DNA of 64,000 nucleotides, taken from Frondihabitans sp. PhB188 (GTDB lineage: Bacteria; Actinomycetota; Actinomycetes; Actinomycetales; Microbacteriaceae). The translations under genes were made by a program, and so were the position numbers. The DNA is taken from NCBI RefSeq assembly GCF_003752365.1, contig NZ_RJUO01000005.1:1-64000 (forward strand), given 5' to 3'. Under the pieces are notes generated by a model. The model saw only the letters and a list, made by a program, of their open reading frames with translations, had not been told where the DNA came from and did no database searches. Positions 150 through 61,343 of this stretch are shown here, piece after piece (the stretch's first letter is position 1; every line of letters starts with the position of its first letter).

Positions 150-1295
150 ATGACGACGCTGCCCACCCCGACCGACACGACGGAGCTCCGAGTGGGGGTG
201 GTGGGGCTCGGCTTCGCGGGCACCACCCACCTCGACGCCTACACGGCCCTGCCGGGAGCGCGCGTCGTCGCCCTCGCCGGCCAGGAGGCCGGCCGCCTGG
301 CCGAGCTCGCCGAGACCCGCGGCGTGGAGGCGACGTACGCCGACTGGCAGGACCTCGTGGCGCGCGACGACCTCGACATCGTGTCGATCGGCGTGCCCAA
401 CGACCTCCACCATCCGATCGCCATGGCCGCGCTCGAATCGGGCAAGCACGTCTTCTGCGAGAAGCCGCTGGCCACGACGGGCGACCTCGCCGCCGAGATG
501 GTGGCGGCGGCCCGGGCGGCCGACCGCGTGCTGGAGGTGGCGTACAACCACCGGAGGCGCGCCGACGTGCAGTTCCTGCGCCGCGAGCTCGACGAGAACC
601 CCATCGGACGCGTCTACCACGCGCGGGCCAGCTGGCTGCGGCGGTCGGGGGTACCCGGCATCGACTCGTGGTTCACCAGCAAGGCCGCGGCGGGCGGCGG
701 GCCCCTGATCGACCTCGGGTCGCACGTGCTCGACATCGCGCTCTACCTGATGGGCGAGCCGACGGTCACCGCGGTCTCGGCCGTGGCCTACAACGAGCTC
801 GGCCGCGCCGGCCGGGGCGGCAGCACGCGCGGCGGGCCCGTCTCGGCGCGCGGAGGGCACGCGTTCGACGTCGAGGACTTCGCGAACGCGCTGCTCCGCT
901 TCGCCGACGGCTCGAGCCTGCAGCTGCAGGCGTCGTGGGCGTCGTACTCGAAGGCCCACGAGGACATCGAGGTCGAGCTGCTCGGCGCCGAGGGCGGCGT
1001 GCGGCTGCACGTCGACGACTACAGCACCGACGGGACGGTGACGCTGTACTCGGACGTCGCGGGCGCTCCGACGGTGTCGCGGCCCGACGTGCACGTTCCT
1101 GCGGGGCACCACCAGAGCGTGATCGAGGAGTTCCTGGCGACCATCCGCGAGGGTGCGGACGGTGCGGCTCCCCGGTACGCCGGCCACCACGGCGAGTACG
1201 CGCTGCACCGCTCGCGGGTGGTCGACGCCGTGTACGAGTCGGCGGCCGCCGGTCGCGAAGTGTCGGTCGAGAGCACCGAGGCGGTGGCCCGATGA
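150..1295 (+). CDS. Gfo/Idh/MocA family NAD(P)-dependent oxidoreductase
   Basis: A 381-aa oxidoreductase of the Gfo/Idh/MocA family, which oxidises or reduces sugars and polyols with NAD(P). The N-terminal Rossmann fold carries VVGLGFAG (about residues 17-24) and the family EKP motif in HVFCEKPLA near residue 105; the C-terminal half contains GSHVLDIAL, where the family keeps its active-site Asp/His helix. The ATG at 150 is chosen because GAGGA lies 5 nt upstream and homology-like sequence starts there; the frame is open back to position 6 but that part is low-complexity. The gene overlaps the ThuA gene by ATGA, so the two are translationally coupled and probably act on the same sugar-derived substrate. 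The substrate cannot be read from sequence. Confidence 0.9.
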
Positions 1296-2026
1296 CCCGG
1301 ATCGTGGTGTGGAACGAGTACGTCCACGAGACACGCGGCGACGAGGTGGTGCTCGGCAACTACCCCGACGGCATCCACGCGGTCGTCGCCGACGGGCTCC
1401 GCGAGCTGCTCGGCGCCGACGCCGACGTCACGACGGCGACCCTGCAGGAGCCCGAGCACGGCCTCACCGAGGAGCGCCTCGCGGCCACCGACGTGCTGTT
1501 CTGGTGGGGGCACATCGCGCACGACCAGGTCTCGGACGAGGTCGTCGACCGCGTGGTACGCCACGTGCACGCGGGCATGGGGCTCGTGGTGCTGCACTCC
1601 GGGCACTACTCGAAGCCGTTCACCCGGCTGATGGGCACGACCTGCTCGCTCAAGTGGCGCAACGACGGCGAGCGCGAGCTCGTCTGGACGATCGCGCCCG
1701 ACCACCCCATCGCCCAGGGCGTGCCGCACCCGATCGTCATCGACCGCCAGGAGATGTACGGCGAGCAGTTCGACATCCCCCGGCCCGACGAGGAGGTGTT
1801 CCTGTCGACGTTCGACGGCGGCGAGGTCTTCCGCTCGGGCGTCGCGTATCGCCGCGGTCTCGGGAAGGTGTTCTACTTCTCGCCCGGCGATCAGGAGTAC
1901 CCCGTCTACCACCACCCCGACATCCGCCGGGTGCTGGCCAACGCCGCCGAATGGGCCGCGCCGACCGCGCCGCGCCGCGACCTGACGGCCGATCAGCACC
2001 CGCGCGACTGGTTCCTGAACCGGTAG
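1292..2026 (+). CDS. ThuA-like (trehalose utilisation) domain protein
   Basis: A 244-aa ThuA/DUF1037-like protein with a class-I glutamine-amidotransferase-like fold. Visible family features are [14 protein letters not shown] in the middle, [10 protein letters not shown], and the C-terminal [31 protein letters not shown] block. In rhizobia ThuA, with the Gfo/Idh enzyme ThuB, converts trehalose to 3-keto products; here the same enzyme pair occurs without an ABC transporter. The start ATG at 1292 overlaps the oxidoreductase stop. The true in vivo sugar is unknown. A 60-bp palindrome follows 16 nt after the stop and may act as the terminator. Confidence 0.85.
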
Positions 2027-2041
2027 TCGCCCGGCGAGCCC

Positions 2042-2101
2042 GGTGAGGAGTCGCTCGTTGCTCGGGGCGGGCGGGGTCTCGACAACCAGCGACTCCTCAC
2101 C
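2042..2101. repeat. 60-bp palindromic element, family A, copy 1
   Basis: The left arm GGTGAGGAGTCGCTCGTTG is matched by an inverted right arm ending in GACTCCTCACC with one mismatch; flanking GCCC/GGGC extends the pairing to 2038-2105. It sits between two convergent genes and could serve as a bidirectional terminator. A second copy with the same 60-bp length lies at 8905-8964, so it is a dispersed repeat and not only a local hairpin. Confidence 0.75.
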
Positions 2102-2106
2102 GGGCT

Positions 2107-4476: not shown

Positions 4477-5480
4477 GCGGGCACCGCCCCCGAGACGCGC
4501 GCGAGGGCGACGGCCTGGCCGACTCCGCGCTCGGCGGCGAGGTCGATCACTCGGGCGGCGACGGCGAGGTCCTGGGCGGCGAGCCCCACGGAGTCGAAGA
4601 CCGTGATGTCGTCGGGTGCGGTGCGGCCGGCCGCAGTTCCTGCGATGACCTCGCCCAGCTCGCTGAATCGCGTGTCGGCCGACAGCGCCCCCTCGGCGAT
4701 CGCCTCGAGCAGGTCGCCGGACTTCGAGAAGGCGGTGGCGCGGCTGTCGACGATCACCGTGCCGCGGGCCATGGCCTCGCCGTCGAGCTCGCGGTGCGTC
4801 GGACGGGGCCGGGCGCCGACCGCGTTGACGTGCTGGCCCTCGTGCAGCCAGGCGCCCAGGACGACGGGGTCGATCGACGGGGTCAGCGTGCAGAGCACGT
4901 CGGCCTGCTCGACGACCTCGCGGGGGCTCGACGCGATGACGCAGCCGCCGGGGAGGTCGAAGCCGACGCCCTCCAGGAAGGCGTCGACCGTGGACCTCGA
5001 CCGCGACCAGACGACGATGCGCTCGAAGGGCATGGTCTCGGCGAACGCCCTGGCGTGCTCGATCGCGAGGTTGCCCGCGCCGATGAGGCCCAGGGTGCGG
5101 CCCCCGGGTGCGGCCAGGTGCCTCGTGGCGACGACCGAGGTCGCGGCCGTGCGGACGCGGGTGATGGAGGCGCCGTCGAGGATGGCGACGCACTCCCCCG
5201 TGACCGCCGACGACACGACGATGGTCGAGCGCTGCGTCGGCAGGCCGCGCTCGGCGTTGGCGGGGATGTCGGCCATCAGCTTCACGGCGACGAGGCCGAG
5301 GCGGTCGGAGCGCGAGGTCATCGGAAGGAAGATGGCCTCGTCGGCCCCGGTCAGGGCGCCCGGCGCGAGCTGCGTCATGGCACCCGAGCCGAGGTCGCGG
5401 TGGATGGCCTCGACGGCGTCGACGGCGTCGACCGAGGTGATCAGCGAGCCGATCTCGCTCGCACCGAGGACGACCGTCAC
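4473..5480 (-). CDS. Ornithine cyclodeaminase / mu-crystallin family protein
   Basis: A 335-aa OCD/mu-crystallin family protein; members are NAD(P)-dependent ornithine cyclodeaminases, alanine dehydrogenases or ketimine reductases. VAVKLMADIPANAERGLPTQ gives the conserved substrate-side Lys region, TRVRTAATS follows, and GLIGAGNLAIEHARAF (about residue 130) is the dinucleotide-binding turn. HVNAVGARPRPTHREL and VIVDSR are also family blocks. The GTG start at 5480 overlaps the stop of the NMT1-like gene (GTGA), and the end overlaps the racemase-family gene, so translation is coupled along the operon. It contains a CGCAGGAACT word at 4635-4644 on its coding strand as GCA GGA ACT. Exact substrate unknown. 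Confidence 0.85.
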   Translation of the reverse strand: MTVVLGASEIGSLITSVDAVDAVEAIHRDLGSGAMTQLAPGALTGADEAIFLPMTSRSDRLGLVAVKLMADIPANAERGLPTQRSTIVVSSAVTGECVAILDGASITRVRTAATSVVATRHLAAPGGRTLGLIGAGNLAIEHARAFAETMPFERIVVWSRSRSTVDAFLEGVGFDLPGGCVIASSPREVVEQADVLCTLTPSIDPVVLGAWLHEGQHVNAVGARPRPTHRELDGEAMARGTVIVDSRATAFSKSGDLLEAIAEGALSADTRFSELGEVIAGTAAGRTAPDDITVFDSVGLAAQDLAVAARVIDLAAERGVGQAVALARVSGAVPA

Positions 5481-6382: not shown

Positions 6383-6417
6383 GTGTTCCTCCAGGGAATC
6401 GGTTGCGGTGGGGCGGA

Positions 6418-8091: not shown

Positions 8092-8718
8092 TCAGTCGCG
8101 AAATGCAGGCTCGAGGGCAGCGAAGATCGCCTCGTCGCGCCGCAGGTGCTCCTCCATCAGGAGCCCGGCCTGAACCACTGAGCCGCGCAGGATCGCGTTG
8201 GCGACGGCCGCATGGTCGCCGCCGCTGGACGCCACCTCGTCCTGCGTCACCCGCTCGAACGCCCACGATGTCTGGTGCACGAGGCGCTCGATCATCTGGT
8301 CGAGCCGGGCGTTGCCCGAGGCGGCTGCCACCAGGCGGTGGAAGGTGAACCGCGGCGACTGCACCTCGACCTCCTGGTCGGAGCGCTCCTCGTTCACCAC
8401 TGCGCGCAGCAGGTCGGCGCTCTCGCCGCCGCGACGCCCGGCGGCGAGCTGAGCCGCAAGCACCTCGAGACCGCGGCGGATCTGCATCAGCTCCACGACG
8501 GCCTCCGGCGACGAGTCGGCGACGCTGACGCCCTTGAACTTCTCGGCGACGACGAAGCCCTCGGTCTCCAGCTGGCGCAGGGCCTCGCGCACCGGCACCC
8601 GCGAGACGCCGAAGCGCTCCGCGAGCTGGTCTTCCTTCAGGCGCGTGCCCCGGGGCAGCGTGCCGGCGATGATCTCGGCGCGAAGGGCTCGGAGGACGGA
8701 CGCGGGCTTGGACTCCAC
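8092..8718 (-). CDS. GntR family transcriptional regulator (FadR/FCD subfamily)
   Basis: A 208-aa regulator with an N-terminal winged helix (LRAEIIAGTLPRGTRLKEDQLAERFGVSRVPVREALRQLETEGFV, about residues 11-56) and an all-helical FCD ligand domain (RRGLEVLAAQLAA, FHRLVAAASGNARLDQMIERL, HAAVANAILRGSVVQAGLLMEEHLRR), whose Asp/His residues usually hold a metal and a carboxylate ligand. Start is GTG at 8718. It lies in the same direction as, and 191 bp before, the MFS operon; the two GTATAC palindromes in that gap are its likely operators. It should repress the operon until the carboxylate substrate appears. Confidence 0.9.
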   Translation of the reverse strand: MESKPASVLRALRAEIIAGTLPRGTRLKEDQLAERFGVSRVPVREALRQLETEGFVVAEKFKGVSVADSSPEAVVELMQIRRGLEVLAAQLAAGRRGGESADLLRAVVNEERSDQEVEVQSPRFTFHRLVAAASGNARLDQMIERLVHQTSWAFERVTQDEVASSGGDHAAVANAILRGSVVQAGLLMEEHLRRDEAIFAALEPAFRD

Positions 8719-8764
8719 GAGGCCGATCGTATCGGTCGGGGCGCAGGAACTCCTGGCGGGCGCC

Positions 8765-8964: not shown

Positions 8965-9017
8965 ATCCCGGCCGGAGCAGTTGACTTCAAGCGCTCGAGG
9001 TGTGGTTCTGTGACGAC

Positions 9018-9458
9018 ATGACCACGATGACCATTCAGGACGCATCGCGCCGGACCAGGCTCAGCGAGCCGACCCTGCGCTATTACGAGGAGGTCGGGCT
9101 CGTCGGCCCGATCCTCCGCGACGACCGCAGCGGGCACCGCCGCTACCGAGAGACCGACGTCGACGACCTGCAGATTCTCGCCTGCCTGCGCGCCATGGGG
9201 ATGGGCATCGACGAGATGCGCACGTACCTGGCCAACCGAGCCCTCGGAAATGCCGCGGCCGGCGAGCAGCGCGACATCCTGACGAAGCACGCCACGCGGA
9301 TCGAGGGCGAGATCGCGACCCTGCACATCCACCTCGAGTACCTGAGCGCGAAGGCGGCCCTGTGGGATGCCCGCGACAAGGGCGACGTCGCGCTCGAGGC
9401 CGAGGCCAAGACCCGCGTCGACGCGATCCTGCCGCAGCTCGAGGGGGCGCTCCGATGA
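9018..9458 (+). CDS. MerR family transcriptional regulator
   Basis: A 146-aa MerR-type regulator. The N-terminal winged helix is clear: TIQDASRRTRLSEPTLRYYEEVGLV...RDDRSGHRRYRETDVDDLQILACLRAMGMGIDEMRTYL, followed by a dimerisation coiled coil (EGEIATLHIHLEYLSAKAALWD). There is no Cys pattern for metal binding, so it belongs to the organic-ligand/NmlR-like side of the family. ATG 9018 is chosen because the short in-frame extension to 9000 has no family match. It overlaps the following reductase gene by ATGA, a frequent pairing in which MerR controls an oxidoreductase induced by reactive compounds. Confidence 0.9.
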   Translation: MTTMTIQDASRRTRLSEPTLRYYEEVGLVGPILRDDRSGHRRYRETDVDDLQILACLRAMGMGIDEMRTYLANRALGNAAAGEQRDILTKHATRIEGEIATLHIHLEYLSAKAALWDARDKGDVALEAEAKTRVDAILPQLEGALR

Positions 9459-10387
9459 CGCGGGTGCTGGTGACCGGCGGCTCGGGCTACCTCGGCAGCC
9501 GGCTCGTCGCCGACCTGCTGCGCGCGGGGGTCGAGGTCCGCACCACGGTCCGCTCGCTCGACAGCGAACCCGAGCTGCGCGAGGCCGTGCGCTGCGGTGG
9601 GGCCGACGACTCGGGGCTGGAGGTCGTGACCGCGACGCTCACCGAAGACGACGGCTGGGCCGCGGCCGCCACCGGCATGGACGGCGTCTACCACGTCGCC
9701 TCGCCGATGATCCTCGCGACCGAGCCCGACGAGGTCGTGATCCCAGCGCGCGACGGCAGCCTGCGGGTGCTCCGCGCCGCCCGCGACGCCGGCGTGCCCC
9801 GGGTCGTCCTGACGTCGTCGTTCGCCGCTGTCGGCTACTCGCCCAAGCGCGTCCGCGACTACACCGAAGACGACTGGACCGACCCTTCGACCCCCGGGCT
9901 CCCGGCGTACCCGCTGTCGAAGGCGGTGGCCGAGCGTGCGGCCTGGGACTTCATCGAGGCAGAAGGTGCAGGAACTGAGCTGGTCACCGTCAACCCCACC
10001 TGGATCGCCGGACCCACCCTCACCCGCACCGCCCGCTCGTCGCTCCAGGTGTTCACGGCGATGATCGGCGGACACATGCCCGTGACGCCCCGTCAGCTGT
10101 TCGGGATCGCCGACGTGCGCGACGTGTCGCAGCTGCACATCGCCGCGATGACGACCGCGGCCGCTGCGGGCCGCCGCTACCTCGCCCTGGCCGACGGCCC
10201 GACGACGACGTTCCTCGCGGTTGCGACCGTGCTCCGCGAGCACTTCCCGGTGCTCGCCGAGAAGGCGCCGACCGAGGAGGCCCCGGGCGACGACCTCCCG
10301 CCGCTCGTGATCCACAACGAGCGGGCCAAGGCCGAGCTGGGCTTCCACCCGCGGCCCGTCGAGGCGACTCTGGTCGAGACCGTCTAG
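9455..10387 (+). CDS. NAD(P)-dependent epimerase/dihydroflavonol-4-reductase-like SDR
   Basis: A 310-aa extended short-chain dehydrogenase. The N-terminus has the glycine-rich VLVTGGSGYLGSRLVADLL; the active-site Ser is in VVLTSSFAAVGY and the YxxxK pair in YPLSKAVAERAAW; VNPTWIAGPTL is typical of the dihydroflavonol reductase / cinnamoyl-CoA reductase branch, which reduces ketones or aldehydes with NADPH. It starts inside the MerR stop codon, so the two genes form one transcript. Substrate unknown; a defence against reactive aldehydes fits the MerR partner but is inference. Confidence 0.88.
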   Translation: MTRVLVTGGSGYLGSRLVADLLRAGVEVRTTVRSLDSEPELREAVRCGGADDSGLEVVTATLTEDDGWAAAATGMDGVYHVASPMILATEPDEVVIPARDGSLRVLRAARDAGVPRVVLTSSFAAVGYSPKRVRDYTEDDWTDPSTPGLPAYPLSKAVAERAAWDFIEAEGAGTELVTVNPTWIAGPTLTRTARSSLQVFTAMIGGHMPVTPRQLFGIADVRDVSQLHIAAMTTAAAAGRRYLALADGPTTTFLAVATVLREHFPVLAEKAPTEEAPGDDLPPLVIHNERAKAELGFHPRPVEATLVETV

Positions 10388-15887: not shown

Positions 15888-18059
15888 ATGACCACCCTCG
15901 AGACCCCCGATCGGGCGCAGGAACTCGCGCCCACCCCGTCGAAGAAGACCGCCTTCTCCGCCGCCCAGCTCGTCGAGGCCCTCCCCGGCGCCCTCCGCAA
16001 GCTCGATCCCCGCCTGATGTGGCGCAACCCGGTCATGTTCCTCGTCGAGGTCGGCGCCGCGTACACGACCGTCCTCGCCGTCGCCGAGCCGTTCACCGGC
16101 GGGCCCGGCGAGTCCGGCGGCTCGGTCGTCCCCGGCTCGTTCACCTGGGCGATCGCGGCGTGGCTGTGGCTGACCGTCGTCTTCGCCAACCTCGCCGAGT
16201 CGGTGGCGGAGGGCCGCGGCAAGGCGCAGGCCGAGACGCTCCGCAAGACCAGGACCTCGACGAGCGCCGTCCGGGTGCTCGACTACGACGCGTCGGGCGA
16301 CCCGGACGCGTCGACGTCGGCCACCGACGAGATCTCGTCGGCCGACCTCACCCTCGGCGACACGGTCGTCGTGGTGGCCGGCGAGCTGGTCCCCGGCGAC
16401 GGCGACATCGTCTGGGGCATCGCCAGCGTCGACGAGTCGGCCATCACGGGCGAGTCGGCCCCGGTCATCCGCGAGTCGGGAGGCGACCGCTCGGCCGTCA
16501 CCGGCGGCACGCGGGTGCTGTCCGACAGGATCGTCGTCCGCATCACGTCAAAGCCCGGCGAGACCTTCGTCGACCGGATGATCTCGCTGGTCGAGGGGGC
16601 CGCCCGGCAGAAGACCCCGAACGAGATCGCGCTGAACATCCTGCTCGCGTCTCTCTCGATCGTGTTCGTCGTCGTGGTGCTCACGCTCAACCCGATCGCC
16701 TCGCTCAGCGATGCCGCGGCGTCGATCCCGGTTCTGATCGCCCTGCTCGTCTGCCTGATCCCGACGACGATCGGCGCCCTGCTCTCGGCCATCGGCATCG
16801 CCGGGATGGACCGCCTCGTGCAGCGGAACGTGCTCGCCATGTCGGGGCGTGCCGTGGAGGCCGCGGGCGACGTGACGACGCTGCTGCTCGACAAGACGGG
16901 CACCATCACCTACGGCAACCGCCGCGCCAGCGAGTTCCTGCCCCTGGGCTCGGCGACCGAGGCCGAGCTGACGGAGGCCGCGGCCACGTCGTCGCTGGCC
17001 GACCCGACGCCCGAGGGACGCTCGATCGTCGACCTCGCCGTCGAGAACGGGTTCGCCGTGCCGTCGGCCCCGGCGGGCGCCGTCGTGCCGTTCACCGCCC
17101 AGACGCGCATGAGCGGCGTCGACTTCGCCGACGGCTCCGCCGTGAGGAAGGGCGCAGGAACCGCCCTCGCCGCCTGGGTCGCCGCCGCCCGCGAGCAGTC
17201 CGCCGCCTCCCTCGCGGGGACCGCCGCCGAGCGCGACGCCCTCGACCGGCTGGTCACCGGCGTCTCGAACGCGGGCGGGACCCCGCTCGTCGTGGCCACG
17301 CGCTCCGTCGACGGGGCCACCCGCATCCTCGGCGTCGTGCACCTGAAGGACGTCGTGAAGGACGGCCTCGCCGAGCGCTTCGCCGAGCTGCGCCTCATGG
17401 GCATCCGCACGGTGATGATCACCGGCGACAACCCGCTGACGGCCCGAGCCATCGCGGCCGAGGCCGGGGTCGACGACTTCCTCGCCGAGGCCACGCCCGA
17501 GGACAAGCTCGCTCTGATCAGGAAGGAGCAGGAGGGCGGCAACCTCGTGGCGATGACCGGCGACGGCACCAACGACGCTCCCGCTCTCGCCCAGGCCGAC
17601 GTCGGCGTCGCCATGAACACCGGCACGTCGGCGGCGAAGGAGGCCGGCAACATGGTCGACCTCGACTCCGATCCGACCAAGCTCATCGACATCGTCCGGA
17701 TCGGCAAGCAGCTGCTCATCACGCGCGGCGCCCTGACCACGTTCTCGATCGCGAACGACGTGGCCAAGTACTTCGCCATCATCCCGGCCATGTTCGCCGG
17801 CATCTTCCCCGGGCTCGGGCTGCTCAACATCATGCAGCTGCACTCGCCCGCGTCGGCGATCCTCTCGGCGATCGTGTTCAATGCGCTCGTCATCGTCGCG
17901 CTGATCCCGCTGGCGCTGCGCGGCGTGAAGTACCGCGCGGCGTCGGCATCGTCGATCCTGTCGCGCAACCTCCTGATCTACGGGCTCGGCGGCATCGTCG
18001 CCCCGTTCGTCGGGATCAAGCTCATCGACCTCATCGTCTCCTTCCTCCCCGGTTTCTAA
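15888..18059 (+). CDS. kdpB: KdpB, P-type ATPase catalytic subunit
   Basis: A 723-aa P-type ATPase. The phosphorylation motif DKTGTIT follows VTTLLL near residue 335; TGES appears in the actuator domain (SAITGESAP), [10 protein letters not shown] and the hinge [22 protein letters not shown] near residue 560-585 complete the signature. It hydrolyses ATP to drive K+ through KdpA. Compared with Escherichia coli KdpB (682 aa) it has a longer N-terminus and an Ala-rich insert around residue 425. It contains two copies of the recurrent CGCAGGAAC word (15916 and 17153), the second read with the codons GCA GGA ACC. Confidence 0.97.
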
Positions 18060-22291: not shown

Positions 22292-22606
22292 ATGACCGAC
22301 GTCGAGATCCGCACCGTCCAGCTCCGCCGCTACGCCCTGCGCGCCGGAGTGATGGCGGAGTTCCTGCCGTGGTGGCACTCCAAGCTCGTGCCCGTCCGAG
22401 AGAAGGCCGGGTTCGCCATCGAGTTCGCCTACGCGATCCCCGAGAGCAACGAGTTCGTCTGGGCCGTCAGCGCTCCCGGCGACGCCGCCGCGTTCGCGCA
22501 GATCGAGGCCGCGTACGTGGGCTCGCCCGAGCGCGCCGAGGCCTTCGAGGGCATCGACGGGTGGACCGACTCGCAGGTCATCACGCTCGTGAACGTCGAG
22601 GCGTAG
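22292..22606 (+). CDS. NIPSNAP-like dimeric alpha/beta barrel protein
   Basis: A 104-aa protein with the ferredoxin-like barrel pattern of the NIPSNAP/antibiotic-monooxygenase group: IRTVQLRRYALRAGVMAEFLPWWHSKLVPVREKAGFAIEFAYAIPESNEFVWAVSAPGDAAAFAQIEAAYVGSPE. Length is that of a single domain. Members are often of unknown role; some are small-molecule-degrading enzymes. It stands alone between kdpE and a convergent ABC operon. Start ATG 22292. Confidence 0.7.
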   Translation: MTDVEIRTVQLRRYALRAGVMAEFLPWWHSKLVPVREKAGFAIEFAYAIPESNEFVWAVSAPGDAAAFAQIEAAYVGSPERAEAFEGIDGWTDSQVITLVNVEA

Positions 22607-45509: not shown

Positions 45510-47089
45510 GCCCCGGCGCGGGCCGCCCGAGCCGTGCGCTCGGCGGCCAGCGTGGCCCGGACGTCGGCGAACGACTGGAGCGTCGTGAACGCCCCGTCGA
45601 TCCACACCGTCTGCAGCAGGCTGTCGGCCTCCTGCTCCGGCGTCGCCTGGTCGGTCTGGACGATCTCGCCGCTCGCGTCGCGGTGGAGGGCGATGCGGCC
45701 CTTGGCGCTCTTCTTGCCGCCGCCGGTCTTCGGGTCCTTCTGGATGTCGACCGGCTCTCCGTCGACGAGCGCCCAGGTGGCCTTGACGGCCGAGCCGAGG
45801 TTGTCGCGGGTGAGGTACTGGTACGTGAACGACCCGACGCCGAGCACGATGTTGTCGCTCGAGTAGCCCTTCGCCGCGAGGCGCTCGAAGATGCGGGTCG
45901 CGCGGTCGATCGTGATGCTGTCGCCGTAGATGACTCCGACGTGGCTGTCGAGGACCTTGAAGCCGGCCTCGTTCACGGTGTGGCCGAACTCCTCGTCGAG
46001 CAGCTCGACGACGCCCTTCTCCTCCGGGCTGCGGTCGCGGTCGCCCGCGGCCGCGAGCTCGTCGCCGAAGTGGCTGCCGGTGACGATGTCGACGGGGTCG
46101 CCCGAGTCGGGGCGGATGACGAGCTTGCCGTCGCGACCCAGGATCCGTGCTCTGAGCGCCGGCTCGGTCAGCACGTCGGTGAGCACCTTGAACAGGTCGT
46201 AGCCGTCGCTGACCGCCGACACGATGCCGGTCGGGAACTCGTCCAGGATCGCGTTGAACGTCTCGAGCTCGCCCTGCTCGCCGCGGATGCACATGACCGA
46301 GTGCTCCGTCGCCGGGACCGACGCCCCGAGCAGTCCGTTCTCGCCGGGGTAGTAGCGGCGGATCCAGTCGAACGTCGGCATCGAGTCGGTGCCGAGGAAC
46401 GACAGCAGGTGCCCGGCGCCCGACGCGGTGGCCGATCCGAGCGACGACTGGCCGCGCATCGAGAAGTCGTGCGCCTGGAAGTCGATTCCGGCCACGGCGC
46501 CCCCGGTGGCCGCGGCCCACTTCTCGATGAGGTCGCGGTACTCGAGGGCGATGGTCGCGACTGTGCCGGGGTGCCAGACGCTGGCCGACAGGGCGGTCTC
46601 GATGTAGTTCGGCAGCCAGTAGAACTCGTCGACGGTGTTCTCGATCGTGAGGGTCGCGACGCCGATGGGGGCGAGGGTGCCCTCGGGCAGGGCCTTGATG
46701 TCGAGCGGCAGGTAGCCGAGGCGGTGGAGCGCGCGGACGTGCTCGCTGCCGATCGCGTTCGGCCCGAAGTAGTCGCGCAGTTCCTGCTCGAACAGCTCTG
46801 CGACCTCGTCTTCGGAAGCGGCGAAGAAGGGAGCCCACGCCTCGGTGAGGTACTCCTGCGCGAATGCCTGGAGGCCGAACACGACGGCGTGGCTCGAGCC
46901 CGGCAGGAGGCGGTTGCTGCGGTTGGTCCAGTTGATCAGGATCCGCGTGGTGCCGGCGGGGTAGAGCTGGCGGTGCGACTGCTTGTAGCCGTCGGTCGTG
47001 AGGAGCGCCTGGATCGGGCTGGCCGTGGTGAGGCGCGGGGCGATGGTGGTCACGGGGTGTGCGGCGGTCGCTGGGTGTGCGGAAGTCAC
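45506..47089 (-). CDS. nadV: Nicotinamide phosphoribosyltransferase (NAMPT)
   Basis: A 527-aa enzyme converting nicotinamide and PRPP to NMN in the short NAD salvage route. Family sequence is strong: LLTTDGYKQSHRQLYPAGTTRILINWTNRSNR, VVFGLQAF, FYWLPNYIETALSASVWHPGTVATIA, IDFQAHDFSMRGQSSLGSATASGAGHLLSFLGTDSMP, KLVIRPDSGDPVDIVTG and VGVIYGDSIT. GTG 47089 has AGGAG 7 nt upstream and overlaps the PRPP-synthetase-like gene by 4 nt. A downstream NrtR confirms the pathway. Confidence 0.95.
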   Translation of the reverse strand: MTSAHPATAAHPVTTIAPRLTTASPIQALLTTDGYKQSHRQLYPAGTTRILINWTNRSNRLLPGSSHAVVFGLQAFAQEYLTEAWAPFFAASEDEVAELFEQELRDYFGPNAIGSEHVRALHRLGYLPLDIKALPEGTLAPIGVATLTIENTVDEFYWLPNYIETALSASVWHPGTVATIALEYRDLIEKWAAATGGAVAGIDFQAHDFSMRGQSSLGSATASGAGHLLSFLGTDSMPTFDWIRRYYPGENGLLGASVPATEHSVMCIRGEQGELETFNAILDEFPTGIVSAVSDGYDLFKVLTDVLTEPALRARILGRDGKLVIRPDSGDPVDIVTGSHFGDELAAAGDRDRSPEEKGVVELLDEEFGHTVNEAGFKVLDSHVGVIYGDSITIDRATRIFERLAAKGYSSDNIVLGVGSFTYQYLTRDNLGSAVKATWALVDGEPVDIQKDPKTGGGKKSAKGRIALHRDASGEIVQTDQATPEQEADSLLQTVWIDGAFTTLQSFADVRATLAAERTARAARAGA

Positions 47090-48876: not shown

Positions 48877-49613
48877 CCGCGGACCCGACGGCGAACGGGA
48901 TCCAGGTCGAAGGCACAGGCTATATCGGACGGGTGCTCGTCGTGATCCCCGCCCGCGACGAGGAGGCGCTGATCGGCCGGGCGCTCGAGGCCGTCGGCCG
49001 CGCCCGCGCGGCTCTCCGGGGCGCCTGCCCCGACGTCGGGGTCGACGTGGTCGTCGTGGCGGATGCCTCGACGGACGCGACCGCGGCGACGGCGGCGGGA
49101 TTCGAGGGGGTCCGCGTGCTCGAGTCGACGGCCGGGCGCGTGGGAGCGGCGCGCGCGCACGGAATCCGGGTGCTGCTGGGCGGCGTGGGGCCCGTTCCTG
49201 CGCCCGAGTCCATCTGGATCGCCAACACCGACGCCGACTCGGTGGTCCCCGAGCGATGGCTCGCCGACCAGGTGTCGATGGCGGATCGCGGCGTCGACGT
49301 GATGGTCGGCACCGTCCGGCCCGACCCCGACGACCTGACCGACGAGCAGAACGCCGCGTGGCTCGAGACCCACGTGCTGGGGCGGCCCAACGGACACGTG
49401 CACGGTGCGAACCTCGGGCTGCGCGCCTCCGCCTACCTCGCGGCCGGCGGCTTCGACCCGGTCGACGAGCACGAGGACAACCGGCTCGTCGACCGGCTGC
49501 GGCGCGGTCCGTGGGTCATCGCGGCCTCCGACGTCTGCCAGGTCGTGACCTCGGGCCGCCGAGTCGGCCGCACGCCGGGCGGGTACGCCGGCTACCTGGC
49601 GGAGACCCTGTGA
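48873..49613 (+). CDS. Family 2 glycosyltransferase
   Basis: A 246-aa GT2 glycosyltransferase: VLVVIPARDEEALIGRALEAV is the nucleotide-sugar-binding start, VVVVADASTDATAA the second beta-alpha unit, IANTDADSVVPERWL supplies the DxD motif, and HGANLGLRASAYLAAGGFDPVDEHEDNRLVDRL contains the acceptor/ED motif. No membrane helices, so it is cytosolic. Start GTG 48873 and stop 49613 overlap both neighbours. It transfers an unknown sugar, probably to the product modified by the adjacent methyltransferase and deacetylase. Confidence 0.88.
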   Translation: MTADPTANGIQVEGTGYIGRVLVVIPARDEEALIGRALEAVGRARAALRGACPDVGVDVVVVADASTDATAATAAGFEGVRVLESTAGRVGAARAHGIRVLLGGVGPVPAPESIWIANTDADSVVPERWLADQVSMADRGVDVMVGTVRPDPDDLTDEQNAAWLETHVLGRPNGHVHGANLGLRASAYLAAGGFDPVDEHEDNRLVDRLRRGPWVIAASDVCQVVTSGRRVGRTPGGYAGYLAETL

Positions 49614-50709: not shown

Positions 50710-51426
50710 GTGGTGAGCTTCGACTCGAGCGACCCGGGCACCGCGAACAGCGACTGGGCGCAGGAACTCCGCCTCACCGCCGCCCCTCCCCTGACCCCGC
50801 CCGCCGACCTCCCCCTCGTCGTGCTCGCTGCGCATCCCGACGACGAGACGCTCGGCGCCGGCGGGCTCCTCCACGGTGCGGCCGCCGCGGGTCGGCCGGT
50901 GACGGTGGTGCTGGTCACCGACGGCCGCGCGTCGCACGCGTCCGACTCGATCGCCGCCGTCCGGGCGGCCGAGTTCGACGCCGCCCTGGCCGCGCTGGGA
51001 GTGGTCGGCTCGCACTCGCTCGGGTACCCCGACGGCACGGTCCGCGAGGCCCGCGACGCGGTGCTCGCCGACGTCGCCGCGATCCTGCGCCCCCTGCCTC
51101 GGGCTCAGCTCGTCGCCCCGTGGCGCGGCGACGGCCACCGCGACCACCGCGTGCTCGGCGAGGTCGCAGCGGAGCTGGCCGATGCCCGGGGCGACGTGCT
51201 CTGGGAGTACCCGATCTGGCTGTGGCACTGGGGGTCGCCCGCCCACCCCGATGTGCCATGGGACCGTCTGGGGCGGCTGCCCCTCGCGCCGGCGGCGCAG
51301 GCGGCGAAACGGGACGCGCTCGACGCCTACGGATCGCAGACGACACCGCGGGGCGATGAGCCGCCGCAGCTGCACGCGCGATTCCTCGAGAACTTCGACC
51401 GCGCGTTCGAGACGTTCGTGGTGTGA
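50710..51426 (+). CDS. PIG-L/LmbE family deacetylase
   Basis: A 238-aa zinc deacetylase of the PIG-L/LmbE family: VVLAAHPDDETLGAGG holds the AHPDDE metal motif (about residues 41-46) and WRGDGHRDHRVLGE supplies the second His ligand region. Members remove N-acetyl groups from GlcNAc-type sugars (GlcNAc-PI, mycothiol precursors, lincosamides). GTG 50710 or the GTG 3 nt later may start it, both within the end of a 17-bp tandem array. With GT2 and NodS-like genes it suggests that an N-acetylated sugar is transferred, deacetylated and methylated. Confidence 0.9.
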   Translation: MVSFDSSDPGTANSDWAQELRLTAAPPLTPPADLPLVVLAAHPDDETLGAGGLLHGAAAAGRPVTVVLVTDGRASHASDSIAAVRAAEFDAALAALGVVGSHSLGYPDGTVREARDAVLADVAAILRPLPRAQLVAPWRGDGHRDHRVLGEVAAELADARGDVLWEYPIWLWHWGSPAHPDVPWDRLGRLPLAPAAQAAKRDALDAYGSQTTPRGDEPPQLHARFLENFDRAFETFVV

Positions 51427-55224: not shown

Positions 55225-55899
55225 GTGAAGAAGCCTGTCGCCGTCCTGTTCGACATCGACGAGACCCTCGTCCACACCGGCGGAGCGGGCGGTCGCAGCT
55301 GGAAGGCCGCGTTCCTCGACCTGCACGGCGTCCCCGCCGACATCGGCGAGCACACCTCGTCGGGCGAGACCGACCCCGCAGTCGGTCGCGAGACGTTCCA
55401 GGGCGTCCTCCACCGCGAGCCGACCCCGGATGAGCTCGCCCGCCTCTACGCGCGCTACCTCTGGCACCTCGCCGCCGACATCCGCACGTCGCCCGGCTAC
55501 CGGGTCGAGGCCGGAGCTGACGATCTGCTCCACCGCCTTGCGGACGAGGGCGTCGTGCTGGGCGTCATCTCCGGCGCGATGGAGGGGGCCGCCCGCGCCA
55601 AGATGGAGCCCGGCGACCTCGGCCGCTACTTCGTGTTCGGCGGCTACGGCTCCGACTCCCCGGATCGCGACGAGGCGACCCGCGCCGCGATCCGCAAGGC
55701 GTCGCTCATCGTCGGCCACGACCTGGAGCCCGACGAGGTCCTCGTCGTCGGCGACACCCCGCGCGATATCGCGTCGGCGCACGCCGCAGGCGCCCTGGGC
55801 ATCGGCGTCGCCACCGGGCACTTCACGGCGCAGGAACTCGCAGCCGCCGGCGCGGACGCCGTTCTCGGCGACCTCACCGAGGCGTTCCCCGGCCTCTGA
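55225..55899 (+). CDS. HAD superfamily hydrolase (phosphoglycolate-phosphatase-like)
   Basis: A 224-aa HAD phosphatase: motif I VAVLFDIDETLVHTGG (DxD, residues 10-12), a helical cap, motif II VLGVISGAMEG, motif III region IRKASLIVGHDLEPDE and motif IV VLVVGDTPRDIASAHAAG. This is the beta-phosphoglucomutase/PGP-like subgroup; the phosphate ester it cleaves is unknown. Start GTG 55225. It contains one CGCAGGAACT word (55829, read as AQEL). Confidence 0.9.
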   Translation: MKKPVAVLFDIDETLVHTGGAGGRSWKAAFLDLHGVPADIGEHTSSGETDPAVGRETFQGVLHREPTPDELARLYARYLWHLAADIRTSPGYRVEAGADDLLHRLADEGVVLGVISGAMEGAARAKMEPGDLGRYFVFGGYGSDSPDRDEATRAAIRKASLIVGHDLEPDEVLVVGDTPRDIASAHAAGALGIGVATGHFTAQELAAAGADAVLGDLTEAFPGL

Positions 55900-56490: not shown

Positions 56491-57666
56491 ATGAAGGCAC
56501 TCACCTACCAGTCGATCACGAACGTCAGCGTCGAAGACGTCCCCAACCCCGAGATCCGCGAGCCCGGTGATGCGATCATCAAGGTCACCTCAGCGGCGAT
56601 CTGCGGCAGCGACCTCCACCTCTACGACGTCTTCGACCCTTACCTCGACAAGGGCGACGTGCTCGGTCACGAGACCATGGGCGTCGTCACCGAGGTCGGA
56701 CCCGGCGTCGAGCGCATCAAGGTCGGCGACCGCGTCGTCGTGCCGTTCGTCATCGCGTGCGGAGACTGCTTCATGTGCGACCGCGGCCTGTTCTCGCAGT
56801 GCGAGACCACGCAGGTCACCGAGTACGACTCCGGTGCGACGCTCTACGGCTACACGAAGCTCTACGGCCAGGTGCCCGGCGGCCAGGCCGAGTACCTGGG
56901 CATCAAGCGCGCCGACGCGAACCTGATCGTCGTCGGCGACGAGCTTCCCGACGAGCGCTACCTCTTCCTCAGCGACATCCTGCCTACCGCGTGGCAGGGC
57001 GTCGAGTACGCGAACGTGCCCGATGGCGGCACCCTCGTCGTGCTCGGCCTCGGCCCGGTCGGCCAGTTCGCCTCGCGCATCGGCGTGCACAAGGGCTTCC
57101 GCGTCATCGCGGTCGACCCGGTGCCCGAGCGACGCGACATGGCGAAGCGGCACGGGGTCGAGACCCTCGACCTCACGAAGGGCGTCGCCGACGAGATCAA
57201 GCGGATGACGGACGGCCGTGGGCCGGACTCCGTCGTGGACGCCGTCGGCATGGAGGCGCACGACCACGGCGGAGTCAGCCTCGTTCAGAAGTTCGCAGCC
57301 GCCCTGCCGGACGCCATCTCTCAGCCGCTCATCCAGAAGGCCGGCATCGACTCGCTGTCGGCGATGCACCTGGCCTTCGAGATCGTGCGCCGCGGCGGCA
57401 CGGTGTCTCTGAGCGGCGTCTACGGGGGCACCGCCGACCCCACGCCGTTCCTGTCGCTCTTCGACAAGCAGATCGCGATCCGCATGGGCCAGTGCAACGT
57501 CCACCACTGGATCGACACGCTGATGCCTCTCGTCGAAGACGCATCCGACCCGCTCGGCACCGAGGACCTCGTGACCCACCCGGTGCCGCTCGACCGCGCC
57601 GCCGAGATGTACGAGGTGTTCAAGAAGAAGGAGGACGGCTGCATCAAGGTCGTCCTCAAGCCCTAG
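56491..57666 (+). CDS. Zinc-dependent alcohol dehydrogenase, formaldehyde-dehydrogenase-like
   Basis: A 391-aa medium-chain dehydrogenase. Catalytic-zinc ligands are in AAICGSDLHLYD and GHETMG; the structural-zinc Cys cluster in CGDCFMCDRGLFSQC; the NAD motif is VVLGLGPVGQFASRI near residue 190. The long segment after AVGMEAHDHGG and the EYDSGATLYGYTKLYGQVPGGQAEYL insert are typical of the FDH-like group found widely in actinobacteria, acting on aldehydes or hemithioacetals. Substrate uncertain. A perfect terminator hairpin follows at 57701. Confidence 0.92.
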   Translation: MKALTYQSITNVSVEDVPNPEIREPGDAIIKVTSAAICGSDLHLYDVFDPYLDKGDVLGHETMGVVTEVGPGVERIKVGDRVVVPFVIACGDCFMCDRGLFSQCETTQVTEYDSGATLYGYTKLYGQVPGGQAEYLGIKRADANLIVVGDELPDERYLFLSDILPTAWQGVEYANVPDGGTLVVLGLGPVGQFASRIGVHKGFRVIAVDPVPERRDMAKRHGVETLDLTKGVADEIKRMTDGRGPDSVVDAVGMEAHDHGGVSLVQKFAAALPDAISQPLIQKAGIDSLSAMHLAFEIVRRGGTVSLSGVYGGTADPTPFLSLFDKQIAIRMGQCNVHHWIDTLMPLVEDASDPLGTEDLVTHPVPLDRAAEMYEVFKKKEDGCIKVVLKP

Positions 57667-57724: not shown

Positions 57725-57746
57725 CTTCGCACAAGGGTCGCAGGAA

Positions 57747-58646
57747 CTACGGAGTCACCATCCCGCCGTTCACGTTCAGGGTCTCTCCCGCGACGAAGCT
57801 CGACTCGCCCGAAGTCAGGAAGACGTACGCGGGTGCGATCTCGGCGGGCTGTCCGGCCCGCCCCATCGGCGACTCGCTCGAGCCGAACTCGGGCAGCGTC
57901 TCGGGGTCGACTCCCCCGGTCACCTGCAGCACGCTCCAGGTCGGGCCGGGGGCCACGACGTTGACGCGGATGCCGCGCTTCACGAGCTGCTGCGCCAGCC
58001 CCTTCGAGAAGTTGTTGATCGCCCCCTTGGTGGTGGCGTAGTCGAGGCGGTCGGGCGCGGGCACGTAGGCCTCGAGCGAAGCCGTGTTCACGATCGTCGA
58101 CCCGGGCTGGAGGTGCGGGAGCGCCGCCTTGACGATGCGGAACGGCGCGTACACGTTCGTCTTGAACGTCGTGTCGAACTGCTCGTCGGAGATCTCCTCG
58201 ATCGTCTCCTTCCACACCTGCTTGCCCGCCACGTTCACGACGGCGTCGAGGCCGCCGAGGCCGTCGACCGCGCGCTGCACGAGCTCGCTGCAGAACGCGG
58301 CGTCGGTGATATCGCCCGGAATCGGCACGGCCACGCGGCCTGCCGCCTCGATCAGGTCGATGACGTGCTGGGCGTCCTCCTGCTCCTCCGGCAGGTACGA
58401 GAGGGCGACGTCGGCGCCTTCGCGCGCGAACGCGATGGCGACCGCGGCGCCGATGCCGGAGTCGGCTCCGGTGATGAGCGCGCGGCGTCCCGTCAGTCGG
58501 CCAGTGCCGCGATAGGACTCCTCGCCGAGGTCGGGAACGGGCGTCATCTGCGACTGGAGGCCCGGCTCCGGCTGCTGCTGCACCTCGGGCGAGATGTTCG
58601 GGTAGCGGGTGCGGGGGTCTTCGAAGCTGTACTGGTCGTTGCTCAT
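57747..58646 (-). CDS. Short-chain dehydrogenase, YhdF/YhxC-like
   Basis: A 299-aa classical SDR with the extended N-terminus of the YhdF/YdaD/YhxC group (PRTRYPNISPEVQQQPEPGLQSQMTPVPDLGEESYRGTGRL). NAD site ALITGADSGIGAAVAIAFA, NVAGKQ, active-site Ser in IVNTASLEAY and YATTKGAINNFSKGLAQQL. In Bacillus such proteins belong to the general stress regulon. ATG 58646. Its stop overlaps a CGCAGGAACT word (57739). Substrate unknown. Confidence 0.9.
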   Translation of the reverse strand: MSNDQYSFEDPRTRYPNISPEVQQQPEPGLQSQMTPVPDLGEESYRGTGRLTGRRALITGADSGIGAAVAIAFAREGADVALSYLPEEQEDAQHVIDLIEAAGRVAVPIPGDITDAAFCSELVQRAVDGLGGLDAVVNVAGKQVWKETIEEISDEQFDTTFKTNVYAPFRIVKAALPHLQPGSTIVNTASLEAYVPAPDRLDYATTKGAINNFSKGLAQQLVKRGIRVNVVAPGPTWSVLQVTGGVDPETLPEFGSSESPMGRAGQPAEIAPAYVFLTSGESSFVAGETLNVNGGMVTP

Positions 58647-58791
58647 CGCAGGTGTCTCCTCTGCTCGGGTCACGGCGCCCGGGCTCAGAGGACGCCTCGG
58701 TCGCGACGGTATGCGCCGGGGCCTGCGTGGCCGCAGAGGTTGCACGGCACGGGGTACAGGGCGGGCGCCGCTGCACCCGCCCACCCGCCCG

Positions 58792-60261
58792 CTACTTGTT
58801 GCGCACCAGCGGCTTGATGTAGATCGCGCCGGTGGAGACGTCCTCTTCGAGCTTCTCGAGGGTGCGGCCGCGCGTCTCGGGGACGGCCCGCCACACGAAG
58901 AGCAGCGCGAGGGCGTTGACCACCGCGAACCCGAAGAACGTGCCGGTGATGCCGAACGCCGCGATGATCGTCGGGAAGTACAGGCCCAGGAACGCGTTGG
59001 CGATCCAGAGGCAGAACACCGAGACGCCGATTCCGAAGCCGCGCATCTTGAGCGGGAAGATCTCGGACAGGGTGACCCAGACGGCGACGTTCAGGAAGGT
59101 CTGCATCGATCCGACGAACAGGATGATCAGCACGAGCAGCACCCACGGGCGAGCAGCGTTGCCGACGGGCAGGGCGACCGAGCCGATGCCGATGAGCAGG
59201 TGGCAGATCGTGGTCAGGGTGAAGCCGATGATGAACGTGAGGCGACGCGGGAAGTGGTCCATCATGCGCAGGGCGATGACGGCGCCGATGACCGCGACGA
59301 TGCCGGGGCCGATGTTCACGATCAGCGCCGTCTGAGCGCCGAAGCCGGCCTCGCGGAGCACGCTCTGGCCGTAGTACATGACCGCGTTGATGCCGGTGAG
59401 CTGCTGGGCGACACCCAGGCCGATGCCGACCAGGATGATGCGGACGAACCACTTGTTGCGCAGGATCTCGCCGATCGACAGGGTCTGGCGCTTCGACTCC
59501 TCGGAGGTGACCTCGTCGATCTCCTTCAGCTCGGCGACGGCGCGCTCCTTGGTGCGAAGCGTCGACAGGACCGTGAGAGCCTCTTCGTCGCGGCCCTTGC
59601 TGACGAGCCAGCGCGGCGACTCGGGCATGCGCAGCATTCCGATGAACAGCGCGATGGCGGGCAGCGCCTCGATCGACAGCATGATGCGCCAGACGCCGTT
59701 GCCCTCGCCCCAGATGTTGCCGATGATCGCGTTGATGATGAAGGCGGCGAGCTGGCCCGAGACGATCATGAGCTCGTTGCGGCCGGCGAGCGAGCCGCGG
59801 ATCTCGAACGGCGCGAGCTCGGCGAGGAAGACGGGGACGACCGTCGAGGCCGCACCGACGGCGAGGCCGAGGATCACACGGCCGACGAGCATCACTCCGA
59901 ACGTCGGTGCGACCACGCAGACCATGGCGCCGATGAAGAACAGCACGCTCATGAGGATGATCGACTTGCGACGGCCCCAGGCGTCCGAGAGACGGCCACC
60001 CGTGATGGCGCCGATCGCGGCGCCGAAGAGGAGGCCCGACGTCACAGCGCCCTCGGTGAGGTTGGTGAGGCCGAGCTCCTTGACCATCGGGCTGAGTGCG
60101 CCGTTGATGACCGAGGTGTCGTAACCGAAGAGGAGGCCGCCGAAGGTGGCAATCAGGGCGACCTGGCCGAGGCGCCTCGAGTGCGGTCCGGTCGTGAGCG
60201 GGGGCAGAGCCGAGGCGGCGCTGCCCGTCGCTGAGTCGGTGGGGCGGGTGGTCGAGGTCAT
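58792..60261 (-). CDS. Sugar porter MFS transporter
   Basis: A 489-aa MFS transporter of the sugar-porter family with 12 predicted helices: GGLLFGYDTSVINGAL in helix 1, GGRLSDAWGRRKSI between helices 2 and 3, PESPRWLVSKGR after helix 6, QQLTGINAVMYYGQSVL in helix 7 and VPETRGRTLEKLEED after helix 12, all classical. This resembles myo-inositol or xylose/H+ symporters (IolT/XylE). ATG 60261. Downstream of an inositol-dehydrogenase-like and a TIM-barrel isomerase gene, so myo-inositol or a related polyol is a plausible substrate. Confidence 0.92.
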   Translation of the reverse strand: MTSTTRPTDSATGSAASALPPLTTGPHSRRLGQVALIATFGGLLFGYDTSVINGALSPMVKELGLTNLTEGAVTSGLLFGAAIGAITGGRLSDAWGRRKSIILMSVLFFIGAMVCVVAPTFGVMLVGRVILGLAVGAASTVVPVFLAELAPFEIRGSLAGRNELMIVSGQLAAFIINAIIGNIWGEGNGVWRIMLSIEALPAIALFIGMLRMPESPRWLVSKGRDEEALTVLSTLRTKERAVAELKEIDEVTSEESKRQTLSIGEILRNKWFVRIILVGIGLGVAQQLTGINAVMYYGQSVLREAGFGAQTALIVNIGPGIVAVIGAVIALRMMDHFPRRLTFIIGFTLTTICHLLIGIGSVALPVGNAARPWVLLVLIILFVGSMQTFLNVAVWVTLSEIFPLKMRGFGIGVSVFCLWIANAFLGLYFPTIIAAFGITGTFFGFAVVNALALLFVWRAVPETRGRTLEKLEEDVSTGAIYIKPLVRNK

Positions 60262-60285
60262 GGGAACTCCTTTGTTCTGGTGAAA

Positions 60286-60330
60286 GGCGGTTCTGTGAAG
60301 GGCGGTTCTGTGAAGGTCGGTTCTGTGAGC
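60286..60330 (+). repeat. 15-bp tandem repeat in the MFS leader region
   Basis: GGCGGTTCTGTGAAG at 60286 and 60301 is perfect; a third unit GTCGGTTCTGTGAGC at 60316 has three changes. It lies between the oxidoreductase stop (60348) and the MFS start (60261), i.e. within the intercistronic leader of the transporter mRNA. Confidence 0.9.
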
Positions 60331-60347
60331 GGAGACGGAGCAGAGGG

Positions 60348-61343
60348 TCAGTACGAGACGGTCTCGGTCCTTCCACTCATGAGGGCCGCCGTCGCGGCCT
60401 CGGCGATCGCCTGGGCCTTGAGCCCGTCGCGGAGCGGTGCCGGAGCCGGCAGCCCTGCTTCTAGGGCGCCGACGAATGCGCCGAGCGCGGCTGAATAGGT
60501 CGGCTCGACTCGCGCGAACCAACCGTCGTGGAGTGCGTCGAGCACGATACCCGAGCCACCGTAGACCGCGACATTGCCGCTCGACTGGCGCCTCGACTCG
60601 ACGAGCCCCGTCGAGCCCATCACCTCGATGCGCTCGTCGTAGCCGTAGCCGGTGCGCCGGACGCTGTCGATCTGCACGAGTGCGCCCGACGGGAGTGTCA
60701 GGGTCGCGACTGAGGTGTCGACGTCGCCGAACTCGGCTATCGCCGGATCGACGAGCGCAGATCCGGCCACGGAGACCGAGACGGGGTCTTCTCCGGTAAT
60801 CCATCGGCAGAGGTCGAAGAAGTGCACGGTCTGGTCGCGCATCTGCCCTCCCGAGCTACGCAGGTACTCGATCGGCGGCAGTGAGGGTCCGCGGGAGCTC
60901 ATCTGGACGAGTTCGACCGAGCCGACGCCGCCCTCGTCGACCACGCGCCTCAGAGCCGCGTGGTCACGGTCGTATCGGCGGTTGAAATCGACCATCGCAG
61001 GAACTCCGGATGCCTCCACGTGCTCCACCACCGCGACCGCCTCGGCCAGGGTCGACCCGACCGGCTTCTCGCACATCACGGCGAGTCCGGCGTCGGCCGC
61101 ACTCCGCAGGTGCTGCGCGTGGGTGTCGGTCGATGAGGCGATGAACACGGCGTCGACGAGGGACGGGTCGAAGACCTCGGCGAGGTCGTCGGTGGCGCGG
61201 GCGCCGTGCTTGCCGGCGAGGGCCGCCGAGCGCTCGCCGTCGATGTCGTACACGAGCACGAAGTCGACGTCGGGATTTGCCGTGAGGCTGCGAGCGTGGA
61301 CCGCGCCGATGAAGCCTGCCCCGACCAGGGCGAAGCGTTGCAT
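60348..61343 (-). CDS. Gfo/Idh/MocA oxidoreductase, inositol 2-dehydrogenase-like
   Basis: A 331-aa oxidoreductase with FALVGAGFIGAVHARSL at the N-terminus, AVFIASSTDTHAQHLRSAADAGLAVMCEKPVGSTLAEA (EKP motif), MVDFNRRYDRDHAALRR and the catalytic GGQMRDQTVHFFDLCRWITGE, all as in IolG-type inositol dehydrogenases. It begins at ATG 61343 on the last base of the upstream isomerase stop (TGATG). The TIM-barrel isomerase, sugar porter and divergent LacI regulator support a polyol catabolic operon. A CGCAGGAACT word lies at 60996, read leftward as GTT CCT GCG. Confidence 0.9.
   Translation of the reverse strand: MQRFALVGAGFIGAVHARSLTANPDVDFVLVYDIDGERSAALAGKHGARATDDLAEVFDPSLVDAVFIASSTDTHAQHLRSAADAGLAVMCEKPVGSTLAEAVAVVEHVEASGVPAMVDFNRRYDRDHAALRRVVDEGGVGSVELVQMSSRGPSLPPIEYLRSSGGQMRDQTVHFFDLCRWITGEDPVSVSVAGSALVDPAIAEFGDVDTSVATLTLPSGALVQIDSVRRTGYGYDERIEVMGSTGLVESRRQSSGNVAVYGGSGIVLDALHDGWFARVEPTYSAALGAFVGALEAGLPAPAPLRDGLKAQAIAEAATAALMSGRTETVSY

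Follow-up and report, generated by a model that had tools for sequence, protein, structure and literature searches.

A short recurrent word in the genome of Frondihabitans sp. PhB188 and its dialects in Microbacteriaceae: a possible counterpart of DNA uptake sequences

A recurrent word in the window and in the genome

The stretch analysed here, the first 64,000 nucleotides of contig NZ_RJUO01000005.1 of Frondihabitans sp. PhB188 (hereafter the window), carries ten exact copies of the ten-letter word CGCAGGAACT, scattered within and between predicted genes that include an oxidoreductase-type gene, an E1-E2 ATPase gene and a luciferase-like monooxygenase gene (Table 1). A sequence-only reading of the window had listed these ten copies together with three of the nine-letter CGCAGGAAC, had put the chance level well below one and had proposed that the word is selected or spreads at the level of DNA; as checks it had named whole-genome counts, codon-shuffled controls and the conservation of sites between species. 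All ten copies and all three were found at the places given, where 0.12 and 0.69 copies respectively are expected per window, and none of 100 dinucleotide shuffles reached the observed numbers. Over the whole genome (3.79 Mb) the excess proved larger than had been stated: CGCAGGAACT occurs 701 times (373 and 328 by strand) and the reversed word, taken as control, 23 times (11 and 12).

For finer analysis about 16% of the genome was sampled as stretches, whole-genome counts being given separately. Over 464 kb, made up of 400 kb of stretches and the window, CAGGAACT stands out as the strongest part of the word, with 133 copies where a third-order Markov model predicts 12, and base preferences running from approximately GGG upstream to C downstream yield the improved consensus ggGCGCAGGAACTC. 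A maximal-order Markov ranking of k-mers on the window was too sparse to be informative. The word is sharply bounded: GCAGGAACTC is found 78 times in perfect form and 112 times summed over all its 30 one-base neighbours, for which about 47 are expected, and 33 of these 112 deviate at the last base only. A short, sharp word in large genomic excess is what is seen with the DNA uptake sequences (DUS) and uptake signal sequences (USS) of other bacteria.

Could codon use produce such a number? In 530 kb of coding sequence of this genome, predicted with a simple codon-score gene finder written for the purpose, GCAGGAACT occurs 110 times, against 15–23 times in eight synonymous-codon shuffles; this null is generous because rare codons brought in by the word itself are kept. 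The word is indeed met in different frames, as had been noticed, and on both strands, the 110 copies inside predicted genes (604 kb, stretch L151 being left out of this count because it overlaps others) dividing into 53 sense and 57 antisense. Outside genes or at their edges lie 26 of 136 copies, compared with 12.2% of the bases, a slight intergenic excess. The position of words within genes followed no clear trend, and no preference for core sequence was seen in the region C1:380-500 kb, where words lay near conserved sequence a little less often (15 of 19) than random places did (0.85). The plus-strand excess that had been read from the window (8 of 10) did not hold: within the window GCAGGAACT has 9 copies on the plus and 6 on the minus strand and CAGGAACT has 9 on each, and in 400 kb elsewhere (C1 stretches together with other contigs) GCAGGAACT is split evenly, 48 to 48. 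Apart from a weak regional bias considered below, the word thus shares with DUS and USS the lack of a general strand bias.

Table 1. Positions of the word and of its nine-letter forms in the window
Word	Position	Strand	Context
CGCAGGAACT	571..580	-	antisense in oxidoreductase-type gene (6..1295 +)
CGCAGGAAC, last base differs	1095..1103	-	
CGCAGGAACT	4635..4644	-	
CGCAGGAACT	8742..8751	+	between predicted genes 8092..8718 and 9000..9458
GCAGGAACT (9-mer)	9968..9976	+	
CGCAGGAACT	15916..15925	+	sense in E1-E2 ATPase gene (15888..18059 +)
GCAGGAACT (9-mer)	16933..16941	-	
CGCAGGAAC, last base differs	17153..17161	+	
GCAGGAACT (9-mer)	22359..22367	-	
GCAGGAACT (9-mer)	22975..22983	-	
CGCAGGAACT	29494..29503	+	antisense in luciferase-like monooxygenase gene (27941..29608 -)
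CGCAGGAACT	32491..32500	+	antisense in FAD-NAD(P)-binding protein gene (32476..33834 -)
GCAGGAACT (9-mer)	46779..46787	-	
CGCAGGAAC, last base differs	49194..49202	-	
CGCAGGAACT	50759..50768	+	sense in PIG-L deacetylase gene (50710..51426 +)
CGCAGGAACT	55829..55838	+	sense in HAD hydrolase gene (55225..55899 +)
CGCAGGAACT	57739..57748	+	gap between genes 56491..57666 + and 57747..58784 -, touching end of second
CGCAGGAACT	60996..61005	+	between predicted genes 58792..60804 - and 61343..62374 -

Long runs of G and C, of 18, 13, 31 and 28 bases, were also seen in the sampled stretches (L116, on contig C2, positions 57-119, and L103:454-481); the first three are found at the end of a contig and could be artefacts of assembly.

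Dialects within Frondihabitans and across the family

In six congeners (G001 to G006) CGCAGGAACT is at background, its 3–21 copies being matched by those of the reversed form, and in other comparison genomes it reaches at most 54 copies in a first set and at most 85 in a second, the latter maximum belonging to a 9.9-Mb genome with 125 reversed copies. The congeners are rich in the related words GCAGGATCC, GCAGGATGC and GCGCAGGATCG, as emerged when words were searched for across the genus, using 7 of the 20 stretches from the PhB188 genome. Words with an AGGA core exceeded eight codon shuffles in all seven Frondihabitans genomes: GCAGGATCC (46 against 2–5) and GCAGGAGCC in G001, CAGGATCCT and CGCAGGATC, more weakly, in G002, GCAGGATGC and GCAGGAGCC in G003, AGGATCCGA and GCAGGATCC in G004, and CGCAGGATC in two genomes, G005 and, with a strong excess (107 against a mean of 6), G006. 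Whole-genome counts of CAGGATCC are 384 in PhB188, 623–1431 in the congeners and 43–257 in 16 other Microbacteriaceae. Between species with about 84% identity in aligned DNA the dialects differ. Dialects of species or clades around a shared core are likewise a feature of DUS and USS. As a separate observation, the palindromic AACCGGTT is in excess in G001 (12 against 1.0).

The sites turn over rapidly. Comparison between species, one of the checks named above, showed them not to be conserved: CAGGAACT is kept at 12 of 98 aligned cells, the word being missing from most orthologous places. Taking the words together, 284 of 1544 aligned cells keep the word, compared with 637 of 1876 for letter-shuffled words. 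Mismatch inside words amounts to 0.207–0.266 against 0.122–0.191 for shuffled words, and in their flanks to 0.185–0.217 against 0.150–0.196, so that words sit in sequence of lower conservation. Position-permuted controls match at 32 of 5920 places, whereas 45 of 1672 real places carry another species' dialect in precisely the same register. Nearly all of these swaps are among the TCC, TGC and TCG versions and one place, seen from both sides, involves the PhB188 word; its dialect has therefore arisen mostly at new places. Origin by point mutation at unconserved places is a trait that the word has in common with DUS and USS.

Across the family the informative word is CGGATGCC. Counted over 249 Microbacteriaceae genomes it ranges from below control to 4041 copies against 116 reversed (G377) and 4093 against 230 (G324). 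With each genus represented by its first genome among the leading 89 of the 249 entries, the ratio of CGGATGCC to its reversed form is at least 2 in 72 of 84 genera, at least 4 in 49 and at least 8 in 29; the 85th genus, g54, was left out and differs internally (2791 against 132 in G313, 313 against 122 in G479). Outside the family, in 139 genomes representing 19 further families of the order, no genome reaches four times control (median 1.56, maximum 3.76), ten family members in that set not being used. PhB188 itself holds 374 copies against 203 reversed, and since Frondihabitans has no marked excess of CGGATGCC, the genus seems to have moved to other words. Four stretches per genome gave the words of individual members of other genera, with expectations that are not codon-aware, codon shuffles having been run for Frondihabitans: CGGATGCCTC in G281 (28 in 80 kb against 0.6 expected), CGGATGCCGC in G007 (24 against 1.4) and CGGATGCCCG in G012 (15 in 60 kb against 0.9). 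A second species of the G281 genus, G324, prefers CGGATGCCG, and the ends of the word differ between the two, with CGGATGCCtCG in G281 and CGGATGCCGCGG in G324.

Other words came to light in these genomes. The small-genome family member G015 (1.43 Mb, GC 0.51; L236-L239) has AACACCGATG as its candidate word, with 12 copies in 80 kb against 0.33. In G324 (L247-L249) TACAGCCCTA and related words occur 12–13 times in 60 kb with almost none expected, and TTTCACGTGA, which we take to resemble half of a parS site, occurs 10 times. The palindromic AATCGATT is in excess in G012 (10 against 0.09).

Mobile DNA, competence genes and a strand-polar word

A TrwC relaxase gene and an ArdC-like gene lie on contig C6 (194.8 kb), which, judged by its genes, is a presumptive conjugative plasmid or element. 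It was sampled as three 20-kb stretches (L119, which is G000:C6:1-20000, L250 and L251). In these 60 kb GCAGGAACT is absent, where 14.5 copies are expected from the chromosomal rate (136 in 564 kb), and CAGGAACT occurs once. C2 begins with a stretch of low GC that is likewise free of GCAGGAACT, and among 5-kb bins the 10 of low GC hold 4 words, compared with 164 words over 110 bins. DUS and USS, too, are scarce in mobile DNA. C6 also carries, at L119:13088-13198, a tandem array with a unit of about 8 bases that contains AAGCCGCAA.

Competence genes, which accompany DUS and USS, are represented by comEC and comEA. The former was found in 28 of 30 relatives searched, including 7 of 7 Frondihabitans, and in PhB188 it adjoins a comEA with SLBB and helix-hairpin-helix (HHH) domains. 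Between PhB188 and its congeners the main ComEC matches are 46–58% identical and the upstream neighbour, presumably leucyl-tRNA synthetase, 87–92%. Within Microbacteriaceae, Rhodoluna lacicola and Aurantimicrobium photophilum are naturally transformable (PMC11577799), and in the actinobacterium Micrococcus luteus transformation needs Flp pili, and comEA and comEC are present (PMC6370729).

A different word, GGGGGAGT, shows clear strand polarity. On C1 it is plus in 10 of 10 copies from 0 to 260 kb and minus in 32 of 32 copies in those stretches that were sampled beyond 300 kb; in the window all 7 copies are minus (2772, 5192, 14580, 20881, 32217, 49668 and 57910). It occurs 57 times in 604 kb, often as CGGGGGAGT, which exceeds codon-shuffled sequence in this genome (46 against 8.75), and it is polar in the congeners too, one stretch of G005 being mixed. 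Strand polarity of this kind is the behaviour of words that guide FtsK to dif, and GGGGGAGT is likely to be the FtsK-orienting polar sequence (KOPS) of Frondihabitans; if it guides FtsK, the terminus would lie near C1:260-300 kb.

Explanations weighed, and known uptake sequences

The view that the word spreads at DNA level stands, supported by the codon shuffles, the even division into sense and antisense copies and the absence of the word from most aligned cells; among the four analogies that the sequence-only reading had offered for it (HIP1, uptake sequences, Chi and segregation motifs) uptake sequences fit best. We propose, with a probability of about 60%, that CGCAGGAACT is the form taken in this species by a mark of self DNA which is shared across the family, has dialects and works like DNA uptake sequences. 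The observations behind this proposal are the excess, the pattern by species and genus, the presence on both strands, the rapid turnover, the independence of codons in Frondihabitans and the absence from the sampled part of C6. From these we infer uptake during transformation as the driver and a single receptor as the reader of the word. A competence machine with ComEA and ComEC would take up or recombine word-bearing DNA more readily, and alleles that gain the word by point mutation would be over-transmitted between cells of the species. Perfect copies would thus accumulate on both strands, within and between genes, while DNA that bypasses the uptake route would stay free of the word. Should the recogniser change its preference, a new dialect would accumulate and the old one decay. 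We do not claim membership among DUS or USS, because preferential uptake is their defining feature and lies beyond sequence analysis. The wider reading, that Microbacteriaceae possess a family-wide DNA self-recognition with fast-changing dialects, a monoderm counterpart of DUS and USS in which nearly every Frondihabitans species has a word of its own that would restrict gene exchange with the others, seems to us evenly poised.

Several points weigh against the proposal. CGGATGCC has no excess (less than twice control) in 12 of the 84 genera. The count of CAGGATGCC is high in G002 (668) and G003 (580) and also in other genera (62–477), probably in part borne by codons there, and because of this background the dialect of G003 separates poorly by that count. 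C6 and the word-free stretch of C2 are lower in G+C than the chromosome (0.62–0.66 for C6), which lowers the expectation somewhat, so that part of the deficit may be compositional. comEC occurs also in families without these words, and its presence is therefore not discriminating. In G002, nonetheless rich in CAGGATCC (1251 copies), the comEC match is split into two segments that differ in frame (L211, G002:C1:2976001-2988000, 4210-7274), which may be a real break or a sequencing error. A pilus ATPase or Flp-like pilin was not found with two simple patterns in the sampled 16% or so of the PhB188 genome, leaving the competence machine incomplete as seen. CAGGAACT has a weak strand bias, 62 copies with and 89 against the polarity of GGGGGAGT (p = 0.034). 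Amino-acid change in word codons over flanks is raised no more than for shuffled words (1110 of 5335 in word codons and 6510 of 35570 in flanks; 1077 of 6744 and 5928 of 43308 for shuffled words), and the equal ratio contradicts selection strong enough to bend proteins. Finally, close pairs (at most 150 bases apart) are rare, with three inverted and one direct in 604 kb. Paired inverted copies are common as terminators among known uptake sequences, and with these four pairs a terminator function can be set aside for the present word. Such pairs are not a strictly defining feature, and for known USS, too, the terminator role is disputed (PMC2346458).

Two other explanations are unlikely, about equally so, and merit discussion. 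One is a Chi-like recombination hot spot, read by the helicase-nuclease of the family, which we take to be of AdnAB type, with alleles carrying the word being repaired and transmitted better. Such a word is likewise short, sharp and abundant, recombination drive would give the same accumulation, and the bias of 62 against 89 would suit it. However, the orientation of known Chi words clearly follows that of replication, whereas the present word stands at 48 to 48 by strand and its bias is weak; seven dialects in one genus would be atypical for Chi; and RecC (PF04257) was not found in 7 Frondihabitans or 12 other family genomes, which makes the RecBCD-type analogy improbable. The other resembles HIP1, the highly iterated palindrome of cyanobacteria: methylation, mismatch repair or a replication bias would favour the word locally, with no transfer of DNA. 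As HIP1 shows, a short word can become very abundant in a genome through causes that are ill understood, and the few near-misses found here are what local conversion could give. HIP1 is a palindromic octamer, however, whereas CGCAGGAACT is not a palindrome, and a cell-wide bias should have reached C6, which has no copy of GCAGGAACT in 60 kb, unless that element arrived recently.

A role of the word as a binding site, for a nucleoid protein or a regulator, is a good deal less probable again: the slight intergenic excess (26 of 136) would agree with it, but most copies lie inside genes and in both orientations, and they are not conserved between species, dialects differing between species about 84% identical. 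A segregation word of KOPS type steering FtsK can practically be dismissed, since the word, although present hundreds of times around the chromosome, lacks strong polarity (CAGGAACT: 62 with, 89 against) and GGGGGAGT fills that role far better, with 10 of 10 plus and then 32 of 32 minus. The same holds for the idea that codon use or recurring protein motifs produce the word incidentally: the Markov expectation takes no account of codons, from which some of the CAGGATGCC counts elsewhere probably come, but in Frondihabitans, to which this control applies, the shuffles give 15–23 against 110, the word falls in several frames and on both strands, and congeners with similar proteins lack it.

Why would a self mark of the proposed kind matter in this family? 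We know of uptake sequences only from Neisseriaceae and Pasteurellaceae. The portions of PMC7811141 and PMC1939737 at hand name them for these two families only. No earlier report of such words in Actinomycetota was found in the literature, open-access papers being covered, and among the matches listed for the exact word the titles point to unrelated work, probably primers. If the proposal is true in a monoderm actinobacterial family, the trait would be convergent and its cost and benefit could be compared between phyla. The receptor of DUS is ComP; a new class of sequence-specific DNA receptor would be there to be found. Dialect change within one genus, with seven genomes and six or so versions, would let the replacement of a word be watched, and donor DNA equipped with the appropriate word might allow these bacteria to be transformed.

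Among known systems HIP1 is alike in being very abundant with an ill-understood driver, and unlike in being palindromic and in not being known to form such dialects. The integrative and conjugative elements of Neisseriaceae that are poor in DUS (PMC7371117) recall C6 in their atypical word density, although here the comparison concerns no copy of GCAGGAACT in 60 kb, one contig and three 20-kb samples, from a plasmid or an integrated element. The USS of Pasteurellaceae (PMC1626085) have a core of about 9 bp, few single-mismatch copies relative to perfect ones, versions specific to subclades and an origin by mutation rather than by copying, all of which are alike here; they differ in their AT-rich flanks, where the PhB188 word is G-rich upstream and that of G004 weakly A-rich, and in comprising two types, whereas the genomes sampled here hold at least seven versions. 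The DUS of Neisseriaceae (PMC3630211) are also short, non-palindromic words in hundreds to thousands of copies; each species or group has its own dialect built on a small common core, dialects change rapidly within the family and some genomes hold two at once. The words described here belong to another phylum, another cell envelope and another sequence, and are known from sequence alone; their 701 copies in the 3.79 Mb of PhB188 are fewer than the approximately 1900 DUS 10-mers of N. meningitidis in that source, whereas some genera of Microbacteriaceae reach about 4000.

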